A stretch of 32,077 nucleotides of DNA. Source: Polyangiaceae bacterium (lineage in GTDB: Bacteria > Myxococcota_A > Polyangia > Polyangiales > Polyangiaceae). This document shows positions 21,289-32,077 of the stretch, piece by piece. Below the pieces are notes generated by a model. It had not been told where the DNA came from and made no database searches. It saw only the letters and a program-made list of their open reading frames with translations. Both the position numbers and the translations under genes were made by a program. Positions within the stretch are counted from its first letter, which is position 1. Each line of letters starts with the position of its first letter. Location of the stretch: assembly GCA_023150915.1 (NCBI GenBank), contig JAKLKA010000081.1, positions 1 through 32,077 on the forward strand, in the 5' to 3' direction.

Positions 21289-22019
<731 letters not shown>

Positions 22020-26993: not shown

Positions 26994-28220
26994 ATGAATC
27001 TGATTCCGCTAGGCCGTCTGTACGACTTCATGGGCGCGCGCCGCCTGTTCATGGCCATCTCGCTCGCCGCCTTCTTCGCGGCGCTGGTGGGCCTGTTTGC
27101 GCCGGGGCTGGGCCTCAAGCTCGGCACCGACTTCAAGGGCGGCACCGAGGTCGAGGTCGCGTTCACCGGCAAGGTGTCTTCGACCGAGGTCGAGAACGCC
27201 GTGAAGGCCTCGGGCTTCTCCCATCCGGACGTGATCCGGGTCGACGACGCGAACAACGCCAGCCACTACATCGTCCGCGTCCAAGAGGTGAGCACGATCT
27301 CGCCCGAGAAGCAGGCCGAGGTCGAGAAGAGCCTGTGCGTGGGCGAGGGGCAGCCCGCCGACTGCACGCCGAACCGCACCGCCACCGAGGTGAAGTTCAG
27401 CCCCGGCGGCGACAAGATCACGGTGCGCTTCCGCGACGCGCCCGACATGGCGTTCATCAAAGAGCGGATCGCCGGCGTGGGCGGGCTGATGCTCCGGCCC
27501 GGCGCCAACAACCCCTCTTTGCAGAGCGAGCGCGACAACAAGGTCGAGATTCAGCTGATGAGCAAGGGCGACCAGCTGATGGCCGGCCTGCGCGACAAGC
27601 TGGGCGCCGACAAGGTGCCGGCCGAGCCGCTGCGCTCGGAGTGGATCGGGCCGAAAGCCGGTGCTCAGCTCCGCGACGCCGCGCTGAAGGCGGTCTTGAT
27701 CTCGATCGTGTTCATCATGGCGTACATCGCCTTCCGCTTCGACCTGCGCTTCGCCCCGGGCGCCGTCTTCGCGCTGGTCCACGACGCGGTCACCGTGCTG
27801 GGCTTCTTGGTGCTGGTGCGGCGCGAGGTGAACCTGACCACGGTCGCCGCCATCTTGACCATCGTCGGCTACTCGATCAACGACACGGTGATCGTCTACG
27901 ACCGCGTGCGCGAGAATCTGGGTCGGCTCAGAGGCAGAACCTTCCGGAGCCTGGTGAACCTGAGCGTATCGGAGATGTTGAACCGCACGTTGCTGGCCAG
28001 CGGCACGACCATCGTCAGCTTGACGGGTCTGTTCGTGTTCGGCACAGGCACCCTCAAGGACTTCGCGCTCACGCTGATCGTGGGCATCACGCTCGGCACG
28101 TACTCGTCGATCTACGTGGCGTTGCCCTTCACCGACTGGCTGGACCACACGTTCTTCGCCAAGGTCGGCAAGGGGAAGAAGATCGGCCAGACGCGCAAGG
28201 CCGAGGCGCCCGCCGTCTGA
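26994..28220 (+). CDS. secF: protein translocase subunit SecF
   Basis: Partner of SecD. 408 residues, compared with about 320 in E. coli; the extra length is in the periplasmic domain between TM1 and TM2 (about 60-220). Features: TM1 (MAISLAAFFAALVGLF), the family motif GTDFKGGTEVEV, then five C-terminal helices with FALVHDAVTVLGFL, TVAAILTIVGYSINDTVIVY and RTLLASGTTIVSL. Start ATG 26994. Its stop is followed 2 nt later by the phosphatase-like gene, which suggests a four-gene operon. Confidence 0.97.
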   Translation: MNLIPLGRLYDFMGARRLFMAISLAAFFAALVGLFAPGLGLKLGTDFKGGTEVEVAFTGKVSSTEVENAVKASGFSHPDVIRVDDANNASHYIVRVQEVSTISPEKQAEVEKSLCVGEGQPADCTPNRTATEVKFSPGGDKITVRFRDAPDMAFIKERIAGVGGLMLRPGANNPSLQSERDNKVEIQLMSKGDQLMAGLRDKLGADKVPAEPLRSEWIGPKAGAQLRDAALKAVLISIVFIMAYIAFRFDLRFAPGAVFALVHDAVTVLGFLVLVRREVNLTTVAAILTIVGYSINDTVIVYDRVRENLGRLRGRTFRSLVNLSVSEMLNRTLLASGTTIVSLTGLFVFGTGTLKDFALTLIVGITLGTYSSIYVALPFTDWLDHTFFAKVGKGKKIGQTRKAEAPAV

Positions 28221-28222
28221 GC

Positions 28223-28840
28223 ATGCTCGGGCGCCCGCTGCTTTCGCTGGCGCTGTGCGCGGGCGTGGCCTGCAGCGCGCCGCCCGAGCCGGCCGCGCCG
28301 GCGCGCTCGTCGCCCACGGCCCAGCCTGCCGGGCGACCGGTGAGCTGGGCCCAGCGCCTCGAGCGACCCGGGCTGCCCAACCTGCACCGCGTGAGCCCGG
28401 TCTACTACCGCGGCGCCCAACCCACCGCCGAGGGCATGGCCGAGCTCCACCGGCTGGGCGTTCGCACCGTGGTCAACTTGCGCGCCGTGCACTCTGACCG
28501 CGACGAGATCGGCGCGCTGCCCCTGGCCTACGAGCACATCAGCGCCAAGGCCTGGCACGGCGAGGACGAAGACGTGATTCGCTTCCTGAAGATCGTCACC
28601 GACCCCGCCCGACAGCCGGTGTTCGTCCACTGCCAGCACGGCGCAGACCGCACCGGAACGATGACCGCCATGTACCGAATCGTCGTTCAGGGGTGGAGCA
28701 AACACGAGGCCATCCGGGAGATGACCCAGGGCGATTTCGGGTTTCACTCGATCTGGAAGAACCTGATCGAATACGTCGAGCAGGTCGACGTGGAGAAGAT
28801 CCGGAAGGCAGCCGGGTTAGCGAAGCCGGCGGGGCGGTAG
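28223..28840 (+). CDS. lipoprotein with dual-specificity/tyrosine phosphatase domain
   Basis: 205 residues. The N-terminus looks like a lipoprotein signal (LLSLALCAGVAC, Cys17), though the -3 Gly is not ideal. A Pro/Ala linker is followed by a compact PTP-like fold: the substrate-recognition entry VYYRGAQPT, LHRLGVRTVVNLR, and the signature loop HCQHGADRTG with nucleophile C137 and R143 (C-x5-R). Such proteins dephosphorylate Tyr/Ser/Thr or phosphoinositide-like substrates; here the predicted location is the periplasm or the outer leaflet. ATG 28223 starts 2 nt after secF, so it is probably cotranscribed with the Sec genes. The substrate is unknown. Confidence 0.85.
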   Translation: MLGRPLLSLALCAGVACSAPPEPAAPARSSPTAQPAGRPVSWAQRLERPGLPNLHRVSPVYYRGAQPTAEGMAELHRLGVRTVVNLRAVHSDRDEIGALPLAYEHISAKAWHGEDEDVIRFLKIVTDPARQPVFVHCQHGADRTGTMTAMYRIVVQGWSKHEAIREMTQGDFGFHSIWKNLIEYVEQVDVEKIRKAAGLAKPAGR

Positions 28841-29067: not shown

Positions 29068-29097
29068 TTGACGTTACCGAGGGCCACGCCGTAATGT
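29068..29097 (+). promoter_or_regulatory. predicted promoter of the protease-RCC1 gene
   Basis: TTGACG (29068-29073, five of six), 18-nt spacer, TAATGT (29092-29097). The predicted leader is about 20 nt and contains the strong Shine-Dalgarno GGGGAGG (29110-29116). Confidence 0.4.
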
Positions 29098-29109: not shown

Positions 29110-29116
29110 GGGGAGG
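29110..29116 (+). promoter_or_regulatory. ribosome binding site fixing the start at the repeat tract
   Basis: GGGGAGG, 7 nt before ATG 29124. The later in-frame GTG at 29163 has no such site. This places the 7-bp repeat inside the coding sequence. Confidence 0.75.
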
Positions 29117-29123
29117 TCGGCTC

Positions 29124-32077
29124 ATGCGCACGCAGCACGCAGCACGCAGCACGCAGCATCTCGTGGGGTTGTTCTTCTGCGCGCTTGGGGTCGTGCAGTT
29201 CGCTTGCTCGGATAGTCGCGGTTCCGTGGACCGCGCAGGCGAACCCGTCATCTTCGGGACCGACGATCGGAAGAACCCGATCGATCCCGCGGTGACCCCG
29301 GCAGCGCGGGCCTGGGCGGACGCCGTCGGCGTGATGGCCGGTCCGCCTGGCAGTGTGGCCTCGGGAAAATTCCCAACGGACGCGCTGTGCCTCAAGACTT
29401 CGTCTCCTGATGTCTGCTACCTGAACACGGCCCTTGCGATTAAGGGCCCGGTGTTCATTGCCACCGTGCCACCCCAAACAGGCTACGGCTTGTGCCCGGA
29501 CGAGAAGTTCGCAGAGGAAACGGTGCTCCGCGCGGATAGTTGCACCGTGTTCCGGTTGCCTCAGACCTCCGGGGGAGAGGAGCTCTTCCTCACCGCCGGT
29601 CACTGCCTCAAGGCAACGGGGGCCGCCGGGTCGGAGAAGGGCCGCGAGTGCAAGGACGTCGAGTTCGCCTTTGGATACCAGGTCCGGTCGTTCGGGACGG
29701 AGCATCCGACCGCGGGTCTCCCGTTCGCTCTGCGCCGCAAATGGGACGTCTACAAGTGCAAAGAGGTCGTCTCTCGCGCGCACCCCCTGTCAAACAGCAG
29801 CGGCGACGACTCCGACTTCACGCTCTTCAAGGCCGATCGCGTCGTGCGGGGCCGGCACCTGCTGGATGTGCGCCGCACCAACACGCTGGCGGCCGACCAA
29901 CCGACCACCGTTGCCGGCCACGGAGCGGGCTTCCCGCTGAAGATCACGCCCACCGGCGCAGTCAAGTTCGTGGACGCGTCGGCGAACACCTTCGCCTTCT
30001 CTAGCGACGCCCTTGAAGGGGACAGCGGCGCTCCGGTGATCGATGTCAACTCGGGTCTCGTGACGGGGATTCTGGGCACGGTCCCACAGGAGAACTTCTA
30101 CGTGGACACGGCCGCAAACTGCGCTCGAGTCGCACCGAAGCCGCCATGCAGCGACTCGGCGGGTTGCCCCACAACGGGCTTTGCCACCGCAACGGACATC
30201 ATGGAAATCGGGAACGTGCCGAACCTGCCGGGGACCCCGACGGTATTCGCCGACCTGGACGGTGATGGAGTGCCGGACAAGATCACCTTCGTCGTCAGCT
30301 TCCTGGTATGGGCACTCGACATCAAGTTTTCGTCTGTTGGAAAGACTTGCACGGGATGTCCGATCGCGACGCCCATTCCGGCGTTCGTGCCCCTCGGCCA
30401 GGTCGCCGCCGCGGCATACGTCGGTGACTTCAACGGCGACGGAGCGCACGACATCATCGTCCAACTGCCGGGCTACGCGACGGTCTACCTCGAGGGAGTG
30501 AACCTCACCAAGCTGACCAATCCGCTGGCGGTCTCGCAGGCCTTCTTCGGGATGGACCAGTACGTCGGGACCTTGGTCGGCGACTTCAACTCCGACGGCC
30601 TAGACGACGTTCGTGCGTTCAGCTCGTCGGGCACGCACGCCGACGTGCTCATGGGAACTCCGTCTGCCGACCCGGGGCAGAGTGCCGCCTTCTCCGGAGG
30701 GCTTGCGCCGAGCATCGAAATCCCTGCCGAGTGTGGCAACGACGTCGCCTACATCGTCCCTGGCAACTACAGCTCGATGTTCCCGTCTTTGACGGCGTAC
30801 ACGTCCACGCGCGGGGTCGCCGTCGTTCCCGGTAGCGTCGTTGGCCTCTCGGACCCGACGCTGCTGGTCATCGACTGCCCTGGCGCGACGAAGAAAAACC
30901 AGCTCAAGCTGCTCGATCCGCTCACCGGGCAAGTTCGCAAGACCCTCACCATGACGGGGACGTCCGAATGGCGAGCGCTTGCCTATCGGGCATCGAAGCA
31001 GGATCTGATCGGTCTAAGGAGCCCCAACGATCCGAAAGGGAGCTACGACGTGGTCCGGATAGGGCTTTCGTCGTCCAACTCGCCGACCACCTCGGTCCTG
31101 GCCACGCGCCCCCAAAGCGGGATTGCCACCGGCATCGCATGGGACGACGTCAGCGGCGAGCTCGGCGTGCTCGTGACGAACAGCTGCTTTTCCCCAGGCT
31201 ATCCCTGCAGCGACGATCGCATCGACTACTTCGGCGAGAGCACGCCGGGAGCCTGGTCCTTCAAGTACCTGAGCAATCTCTTTCAGAATGCGTGCTCGGA
31301 AAACTACTCGAAGCCTTCGACGGTCGAACCGTCGGGCTTGATCATGAGCGGGGCCGACGAGTTGGTCGCCTGTAACCGCCGCGGCTTTGGCATCGGCTAC
31401 CGCGACGCTCGATCGAAGCTCGTCTTGAACGAAGTCCCGAGCGTCCCGGTGACGCCGTGGCATACCGCACTGCACCTCCACGACGTCGAGTGTGACCCGA
31501 AGACCTATGCTTCCGTCTTCCAGACGGTCGTGTGGGGTGTATCGCGCAGCGGGCGAGTTCTCCGTGCCTTGCCGGTGACCTCGTCGGACTGCGGGTTCGG
31601 GGGCCAGCCACCGGCAACGGCGAAGTGCGTCGTGAGCGAGAGCGGGGTGTCTCGAGTCGCAGCCGGCGGTTCGAGCACGCTGTTCGTTTCGGACGACGGA
31701 ACTGTGCGTGGCGCCGGCGACAACACACACGGACAGCTCGCCCTGCCGGCAGGGGCGAACGTCGCGGCGGCCACGCCGGTCCCAGCGTATTTCGGGGCGT
31801 CCGACGTGGCTGTTGGGGCCGGTCATTCTCTCGCGCTCTTCGGCGACGGCGTCGTGAAGGCTGCCGGTCACAACTCCACCGGTCAGCTCGGGCGCGACGA
31901 CGTGACCGCGACGGCTGTTCCCGCCCCGGTTGCGGGACTCCCGCCAGTGAGCGCCGTCGCCGCAGGAGATGACTTCTCCCTCGCTCTCGGCGTGGATGGC
32001 AGCGTGTGGGCGTGGGGTGCCAACGACGACGGGCAGTTGGGCGACGGAACGCGGTCCTCGCGCTTCACGCCGGTCAG
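29124..32077 (+). CDS. exported trypsin-like protease with FG-GAP/VCBS and RCC1 repeats, partial
   Basis: Open frame of at least 984 codons with no stop, running off the right edge. N-terminus: basic region plus hydrophobic stretch LVGLFFCALGVVQFAC, either a Sec or a lipoprotein signal (Cys near residue 28, weak lipobox). Residues about 135-330 are a chymotrypsin/trypsin-fold serine protease with the triad visible: H160 (LTAGHC), D231 (DSDFTLFK) and S301 (GDSGAPV). Three FG-GAP/VCBS calcium-type motifs follow: DLDGDGVPD (about 377), GDFNGDGAHD (about 435), GDFNSDGLDD (about 487). From about 842 there are three RCC1 repeats (VAAGGSSTLFV, VAVGAGHSLAL, WGANDDGQLGDGT). Secreted or surface proteolysis is inferred. 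Codon use is less GC-rich than in its neighbours. Confidence 0.9.
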   Translation, partial: MRTQHAARSTQHLVGLFFCALGVVQFACSDSRGSVDRAGEPVIFGTDDRKNPIDPAVTPAARAWADAVGVMAGPPGSVASGKFPTDALCLKTSSPDVCYLNTALAIKGPVFIATVPPQTGYGLCPDEKFAEETVLRADSCTVFRLPQTSGGEELFLTAGHCLKATGAAGSEKGRECKDVEFAFGYQVRSFGTEHPTAGLPFALRRKWDVYKCKEVVSRAHPLSNSSGDDSDFTLFKADRVVRGRHLLDVRRTNTLAADQPTTVAGHGAGFPLKITPTGAVKFVDASANTFAFSSDALEGDSGAPVIDVNSGLVTGILGTVPQENFYVDTAANCARVAPKPPCSDSAGCPTTGFATATDIMEIGNVPNLPGTPTVFADLDGDGVPDKITFVVSFLVWALDIKFSSVGKTCTGCPIATPIPAFVPLGQVAAAAYVGDFNGDGAHDIIVQLPGYATVYLEGVNLTKLTNPLAVSQAFFGMDQYVGTLVGDFNSDGLDDVRAFSSSGTHADVLMGTPSADPGQSAAFSGGLAPSIEIPAECGNDVAYIVPGNYSSMFPSLTAYTSTRGVAVVPGSVVGLSDPTLLVIDCPGATKKNQLKLLDPLTGQVRKTLTMTGTSEWRALAYRASKQDLIGLRSPNDPKGSYDVVRIGLSSSNSPTTSVLATRPQSGIATGIAWDDVSGELGVLVTNSCFSPGYPCSDDRIDYFGESTPGAWSFKYLSNLFQNACSENYSKPSTVEPSGLIMSGADELVACNRRGFGIGYRDARSKLVLNEVPSVPVTPWHTALHLHDVECDPKTYASVFQTVVWGVSRSGRVLRALPVTSSDCGFGGQPPATAKCVVSESGVSRVAAGGSSTLFVSDDGTVRGAGDNTHGQLALPAGANVAAATPVPAYFGASDVAVGAGHSLALFGDGVVKAAGHNSTGQLGRDDVTATAVPAPVAGLPPVSAVAAGDDFSLALGVDGSVWAWGANDDGQLGDGTRSSRFTPV
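29130..29157 (+). repeat. four perfect tandem copies of the heptamer ACGCAGC
   Basis: Copies at 29130-29136, 29137-29143, 29144-29150 and 29151-29157, beginning two codons after the ATG. Seven is not a multiple of three, so gain or loss of one unit shifts the reading frame of the secreted protease. Confidence 0.95.

Follow-up and report, generated by a model that had tools for sequence, protein, structure and literature searches.

We analysed a stretch of 32,077 nucleotides from a Polyangiaceae bacterium (assembly GCA_023150915.1, contig JAKLKA010000081.1, positions 1 to 32,077 of the forward strand), called the window below. The gene that starts at 29124, whose product is by sequence a putative secreted trypsin-like protease, carries a tandem array of the heptamer ACGCAGC just behind its start codon, and this array is very probably a slipped-strand frame switch, that is, a device of phase variation. 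The same arrangement was found at many other gene starts in the same genome and in its relatives, mostly with the gene out of frame.

A preliminary description of the window had reported four perfect ACGCAGC units inside the coding sequence, behind an ATG and a strong Shine-Dalgarno, and both the coordinates (29130-29157) and Tandem Repeats Finder (4.4 copies, 100% match, 29128-29158) bear this out. The elements around the array, all on the forward strand, are the following:

29068 to 29097, forward strand: candidate sigma-70-type promoter, with TTGACG at 29068-29073, an 18-base spacer and TAATGT at 29092-29097 (by eye, from the consensus only)
29110 to 29116, forward strand: Shine-Dalgarno GGGGAGG, 7 bases 5' of the ATG
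29124 to 29129, forward strand: start codon ATG (29124-29126) and lead codon CGC (29127-29129), read from the sequence
29130 to 29157, forward strand: the candidate switch, four perfect ACGCAGC units with no stop in any frame
29157 to 29207, forward strand: putative hydrophobic signal-peptide core ending in Cys28 (HLVGLFFCALGVVQFAC), lipoprotein-like (translation, by eye)
29213 to 29215, forward strand: TAG, first stop of one shifted frame
29293 to 29295, forward strand: TGA, first stop of the other shifted frame

The frame of the array is open from 29028 to the end of the window, with 984 codons counted from the ATG at 29124, and the other two frames run without a stop as far as 29212 and 29292. 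Both alternative frames thus stop early, as had been described, and the accompanying frame logic is also correct: one unit more or less breaks the gene and three restore it. Further in-frame starts are found upstream (ATG 29094, ATG 29037, GTG 29043 and GTG 29034), and since all of them lie 5' of the array they would be switched too. The array translates as a rotated TQHAARS in all frames, stop-free and with one arginine per seven residues (its complement would translate as AACCVLR), and therefore the repeat would be an acceptable charged front of a signal peptide in every frame. Only the sequence 3' of the array would be switched. With up to three mismatches allowed, a tripled ACGCAGC matched twice in the window and in 0 of 100 dinucleotide-preserving shuffles, and a chance origin of the array was therefore rejected. 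In the whole genome of the bacterium, the extra matches obtained with three mismatches were the edges of the nine arrays already known and one place on contig C223.

Arrays of this heptamer were counted in the genome of the window (G000), in two other species of its genus (G001 and G002) and in two further genomes of the same family (G022 and G053). Taking at least three units, we found 9, 9, 4, 2 and 1 loci in G000, G001, G002, G022 and G053 respectively, 25 in total, with 4 to 32 copies; the array of G002 C93 is split into 6 + 3 units and was counted once, its second part alone failing the detector described below. Three-unit arrays were present in 4 of 39 genomes (own included), namely those of the three species of the genus and G022, and four-unit arrays in 5 of 108 genomes of the family and 5 of 183 genomes of the order, all five within the family. 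These genome-wide counts cover specific units, ACGCAGC and two others treated below, CGACGCA and GAACGGC; the latter two were each found as arrays in 1 of the 108 family genomes. G001 is assembled in only 5 contigs; the other four genomes with ACGCAGC arrays are drafts with between 30 and 295 contigs, the own genome having 295.

The placement of the arrays is very uniform. Our detector asked for an ATG within 40 bases 5' of the array and a Shine-Dalgarno-like motif from a permissive list (GGGG and AGGA were accepted), and all 25 loci pass it, the array starting 3 to 26 bases from the A of the ATG. All 25 arrays lie on the strand that reads ACGCAGC and precede a signal-peptide-like stretch, as judged by eye. 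The controls came from a public scan of genomes: of the 117 arrays with four or more units among the matches listed, 10 pass, four of which are Polyangiaceae loci already counted. This leaves 6 of 113 among the matches listed, which differs from 25 of 25 with a Fisher p of 4e-22 when kinship is ignored; the idea that the placement is a property of the heptamer itself was rejected on this count. Regarding the promoters, the best promoter-like site starts with TTGAC at 16 of the 25 loci, window included, with a script that gives a bonus to TTGAC, and at these 16 loci a weak -10 box follows 15 to 18 bases on and ends 23 to 44 bases before the ATG. At the window locus the script likewise chose TTGACG and placed the -10 box two bases further upstream than we did by eye.

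Arrays of the unit were seen in many bacteria of other lineages in the same scan. In JAEUHP010000117.1 (L153), labelled Planctomycetota MAG-20 and one of the six passing controls, seven ACGCAGC units stand behind ATGAAACGC and a Shine-Dalgarno, with an 844-codon frame that does not contain the ATG and a product for which no Pfam family was listed at E 0.1; it is either the same design outside the myxobacteria or a misplaced contig. The heptamer is also present on many contigs each of Gemmatimonadaceae P6-2, Chloroflexi LacPavin and Thermomicrobiales ACE_NR_CHLO10 (records among L094-L208), and, among the arrays listed for these three, one (L171, LacPavin) passes the start-codon detector.

We then defined the gene at each locus as the longest frame after the array, and called the locus ON when the ATG lies in that frame and OFF otherwise. 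Five loci were ON, nine were one unit short and eleven one unit over, which makes 20 of 25 OFF. Compared with equal thirds the chi-square p was 0.33, compatible with a random copy number, and this agreement with random copy number modulo 3 supports the phase-variable switch that the preliminary description had proposed. The ON loci were the window, whose array is the shortest of the nine in its genome (4 to 16 copies), C9 of the same genome, two loci of G001 C3 (1341280 and 2209067, the latter with 26 copies) and G002 C152. That description had also suggested a comparison with relatives, and the copy number turned out not to be identical among homologous copies: the window has 4 copies and is ON, its paralogue at C199 has 9 and is OFF, and the G001 orthologue has 5 with another lead and is ON. 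Similarly, C5 (7 copies) and C68 (6 copies) are both OFF, in different frames. Contig ends cut C5, C68 and C199 at 229 to 287 bases past the array. At these three loci the frame was assigned from the longest open frame and the signal peptide in it, and at C199 also from 92% identity to the window protein.

Genes that are out of frame are nevertheless constrained. We estimated the ratio of nonsynonymous to synonymous differences per site (pN/pS) in seven pairs, and all gave values from 0.13 to 0.48. Two of them are full-length pairs with both members OFF: C177 and G002 C189 (0.24 over 786 codons, with nonsynonymous divergence dN 0.12 and synonymous divergence dS 0.73), and C137 and G002 C93 (0.48 over 1146 codons). 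The window and its G001 orthologue, both ON, gave 0.22 over 970 codons, and the four remaining pairs (76 to 118 codons) 0.13 to 0.32. Genes OFF in both sampled genomes still show purifying selection, and this constraint fits expression in part of the population.

A further line of evidence is that the unit may change at a conserved position. The protein of C137 was sought in the five genomes, and the G053 relative (C23) is 37% identical along most of the protein. Directly behind ATGGCGAGG and a Shine-Dalgarno it carries GAACGGC repeated 15 times (L342, about 100824-100928); it is OFF, with 1167 codons open in another frame than that of its ATG. The trypsin-like orthologues therefore carry ACGCAGC in G000 C137 and G002 C93 and GAACGGC in G053 C23, and all three are OFF. 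A third heptamer, CGACGCA, stands at three gene starts of G053: C72 is OFF (576 codons), C75 is ON (1027 codons, transglutaminase-like) and at C71 the contig ends soon after the array. Finally, a tetramer array, (GCAC)6, lies behind a GTG in G001 C3 at about 1127090-1127113 (L269:7090-7113), before a 1123-codon lipoprotein-like frame that is OFF and that aligns at 33% with the window protein over its residues 507-832, counted from base 29160. With these five loci of other units added, the design is present at 30 loci. As the unit changes while the position is kept, selection would act on the switching property itself, and in our view no other sign of this is as strong.

In the mechanism that we infer, a promoter, a Shine-Dalgarno and an ATG stand immediately 5' of the heptamer array, the array would code for the positively charged start of a signal peptide in whichever frame, and behind it would come the remainder of the signal peptide and then the protein. 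Slippage would be the cause of the gain or loss of one 7-base unit, at its own rate, and each such event would shift the frame, with only a short peptide made (OFF). The full protein would return (ON) after a change of three units or after the opposite change. Nine such ACGCAGC switches would act in the own genome on secreted or lipoprotein-like genes and, since there are many independent switches on such genes per genome, a clone would hold cells with different sets of secreted proteins. Switching would thus go on inside a culture, and the resulting mixture may benefit the population.

Several observations weigh against this reading. The window array holds just 4 copies, which is at the low end for slippage, and the differences in copy number and state were seen between species and paralogues only. 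Two of the five ON loci are imperfect, C9 being a short fragment (186 codons from the ATG) and the frame of G002 C152 (L219) changing again near residue 107, so three ON loci are clean. The loci are not independent, as some are paralogous or have common 5' ends, and at 9 of the 25 the best promoter-like site lacks TTGAC. Draft assemblies could miscount copies, G001 with its 5 contigs being the least affected. At 20 of the 25 loci an ATG, GTG or TTG of the long frame occurs within 45 bases after the array, as in C177, where an ATG lies 13 bases beyond the array. G177, which belongs to another family of the order, has seven CGACGCA units (C373:11599-11647) that are preceded by no ATG with a Shine-Dalgarno, a GTG lying 36 bases 5' of the array within a 401-codon frame; this case speaks against a general rule for that unit. 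Lastly, two shorter non-triplet arrays with no start nearby appeared under laxer limits in the G001 sample described below, and the G053 sample contains a (GGGGC)5 array that we count on the same side.

The alternative that survives best, which we regard as possible but doubtful, is that the copy number works as a rheostat: it would set the length of the charged front or the initiation of translation, and hence the amount exported, and not just on or off. The G001 locus that is ON with 26 copies would place about 60 residues before the hydrophobic core, as such a device might, and earlier work cited in the available part of PMC13001214 found that a longer repeat region raises the activity of NeuO, an enzyme to which we return below. 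A pure rheostat would step in frame, but at 20 of the 25 loci the gene is out of frame, and the units have 7 or 4 bases.

It is improbable that the OFF genes are expressed anyway, by ribosomal frameshifting through the array or from a downstream start, the repeats being merely tolerated. The conservation of the OFF genes would be accounted for in this way, and the starts present just past the array at 20 of 25 loci would serve for it. But the 45 bases behind the array contain no such start at the other 5 of 25 loci, the long frame has no ATG, GTG or TTG before the array at 15 of the 20 OFF loci, and a downstream start would drop the charged residues of the signal peptide.

A slightly less credible explanation is neutral expansion, in which signal peptides tolerate TQHAARS, the arrays drift to larger sizes and the genes with broken frames decay. 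The frame states, being compatible with random, agree with it, and so do the other lesions of C9 and G002 C152. The pN/pS of 0.24 and 0.48 in the pairs with both genes OFF and the different heptamer at the same position in an orthologue speak against decay and drift. In this context we also sampled all perfect arrays with units of 2 to 12 bases, three or more copies and a length of 24 bases or more. The numbers of triplet-type and other arrays were 15 and 3 in 800 kilobases (kb) of G001, 1 and 0 in 200 kb of G021, 4 and 0 in 200 kb of G015, 6 and 1 in 311 kb of G000, and 7 and 1 in 373 kb of G053. All 3 non-triplet arrays of G001 sit at gene starts of this design, which is against neutral expansion, in a stretch chosen to hold two of them; the stretches were picked to include known arrays (two in G001, one in G000), and the sole unprompted find was the tetramer.

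An assembly artefact, by which the copy number and hence the frame would be wrong in drafts, is hardly believable: the own genome is indeed in 295 contigs, three of them ending 229 to 287 bases past an array, but the 5-contig G001 looks alike, with 7 of 9 loci OFF, and miscounting cannot create the arrays or their placement.

Besides the frame switch, the 5' ends of these genes appear to be modular. C137 and C8 are 89% alike over 139 bases upstream up to the array, with no blastn match behind it; G001 C1 3303463 and C3 915180 share 128 upstream bases at 84%, with no match behind; and in G053 C71 and C75 all 64 upstream bases present on the contig are identical (64/64) and the sequence behind differs. 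One 5' end with its repeat can therefore precede different genes, since alike 5' ends adjoin unlike sequences. Judged from these alignments, the shared 5' ends suggest exchange within the repeat; duplication and later replacement could yield the same pattern. We tentatively propose, with somewhat more doubt than confidence, that a spreading cassette exists, made up of promoter, ribosome site, ATG and repeat, and that recombination in the heptamer tract joins it to unrelated genes of secreted proteins. Such a cassette would both flip and re-wire the protease arsenal, and selection would keep some frame-shifting signal-peptide repeat, even with the unit replaced.

Regarding the proteins that would be switched, 22 of the 25 genes were scanned with Pfam (L063, L064 and L068 were left out, and L219 entered by its second piece only). 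Nine of the 22 reach the cut-off of a peptidase family: eight are trypsin-like (window, L065, L066, L209, L210, L216, L218 and L222, the last by 0.1 bit) and one is a subtilase (L211), and L217 gave a matrixin hint below the cut-off. Others of these genes matched RCC1, kelch or TSP3, the last two in several cases below the cut-off, or gave no known family. NCBIfam, run on ten proteins, gave weak matches at most, none near a curated cut-off. L219 is a homologue of a 1194-codon trypsin-like gene, and its second frame change is either a real lesion or an assembly error. L062 and L063 (G000 C8 and C9) are related copies, C9 having about 612 extra bases after residue 119 and ending 172 codons past the array, and both look like fragments of a protease-type gene.

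Similar switches have been described before, and we compare them here as far as the available parts of the cited papers go. NeuO, the phage-borne capsule O-acetyltransferase of Escherichia coli K1, has the heptanucleotide AAGACTC in its 5' coding region and is ON when the count fits the frame, with 3 to 53 repeats and 65.6% of 64 genomes OFF (PMC13001214). By our own computation AAGACTC is, like ACGCAGC, stop-free in every frame. However, NeuO is a single prophage enzyme gene, whereas here there are many genes per genome and the repeat is the apparent front of a signal peptide. In Neisseria, several opa genes carry the shared CTCTT repeat. This coding repeat lies in the leader-peptide region of Opa and switches expression by frame (PMC3960869). 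The likeness is one coding repeat in a leader peptide (by eye in our case) at many loci, nine each in G000 and G001; in contrast, Opa is one protein family with a pentamer, and here there are several families, a heptamer and other units in relatives. No Pfam match to the Opa family was found among the 22 genes scanned, and the switch works like Opa but is not Opa. In the contingency loci of Haemophilus influenzae, sets of tandem repeats bring about the phase variation of surface structures, but the repeats are mainly tetranucleotides in strain Rd and belong to a human pathogen (PMC2651432). Abundant heptamer arrays are known in Xanthomonas and Nostoc, but these are G-rich and over-represented intergenically, and the available part of PMC4692102 does not describe them as start-codon switches.

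The preliminary description had also held that such variation is not a known theme for myxobacteria. This stands for switching by tandem repeats, of which no account was found in the literature searched, with few subscription journals covered and the sources available in part. It does not stand for phase variation as such, since colony phase variation with two colony types is known in Myxococcus xanthus, no repeat mechanism being given for it in the available part of PMC3986340. According to a 2025 review, work on phase variation has centred on pathogens and gaps remain for ocean and soil bacteria; its available text contains no word starting with 'myxo' (PMC11868660). As far as the literature searched goes, switches of this kind are known; what is new is their presence in this lineage and on such a repertoire of proteases, the use of several units and a cassette that possibly spreads.

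In this myxobacterial lineage, known from environmental genomes, numerous switches that flip at random and independently of one another apparently control secreted proteases and lipoprotein-like genes. If this is true, even a population of a single genotype would release a mixture of enzymes, and in any one genome the majority of such genes would be silent, as 20 of 25 are here. Annotation would be misled as well: most long frames that are silent lack a usable start and would be given a late one or be called pseudogenes. Repeat counts would allow a direct test of whether social bacteria hedge their bets with shared enzymes.

Finally, the window protein itself and its surroundings can be summarized as follows, all on the forward strand:

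29577 to 30071, forward strand: predicted trypsin-like peptidase domain (Pfam Trypsin_2, E 3.8e-07, domain scanned alone)
29601 to 29603, forward strand: candidate His of the triad (motif TAGHC)
29814 to 29816, forward strand: candidate Asp of the triad (motif DSDFTLF)
30024 to 30026, forward strand: candidate Ser of the triad (motif GDSGAPV)
30426 to 30611, forward strand: weak FG-GAP-like repeat region (22.6 bits, cut-off 26.9)
31530 to 32072, forward strand: RCC1 repeats (Pfam), the gene continuing past the end of the window

The call of a secreted protease made in the preliminary description is upheld as a putative one: Trypsin_2 scores 31.4 bits against a Pfam cut-off of 27.6 when the part coded by 29226-30234 is scanned alone, and the signal peptide was judged by eye. 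A Pfam scan of the whole 984-residue protein gave no trypsin family at E 0.01, RCC1 repeats being dominant. The three motifs plausibly form a catalytic triad, and all are kept in the G001 orthologue. Counted from its ATG this orthologue has 1776 codons, and over the 972 residues that follow the array it is 87% identical to the window protein. A single-sequence fold prediction of the protease domain reached a mean predicted local distance difference test score (pLDDT) of only 32.8, too low for a usable model, and a PDB sequence search with a two-row profile of the domain gave no match at E 0.1. Directly upstream, at 28214-28837, there is a small gene with a lipoprotein-like signal (by eye) and a predicted dual-specificity/tyrosine phosphatase domain (Pfam PTP-NADK and Y_phosphatase2), which comes after a SecD/SecF-type gene. 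Elsewhere in the window, 21302-21354 holds about 17.7 TCG triplets at 88% match, whose changes in length keep the frame.

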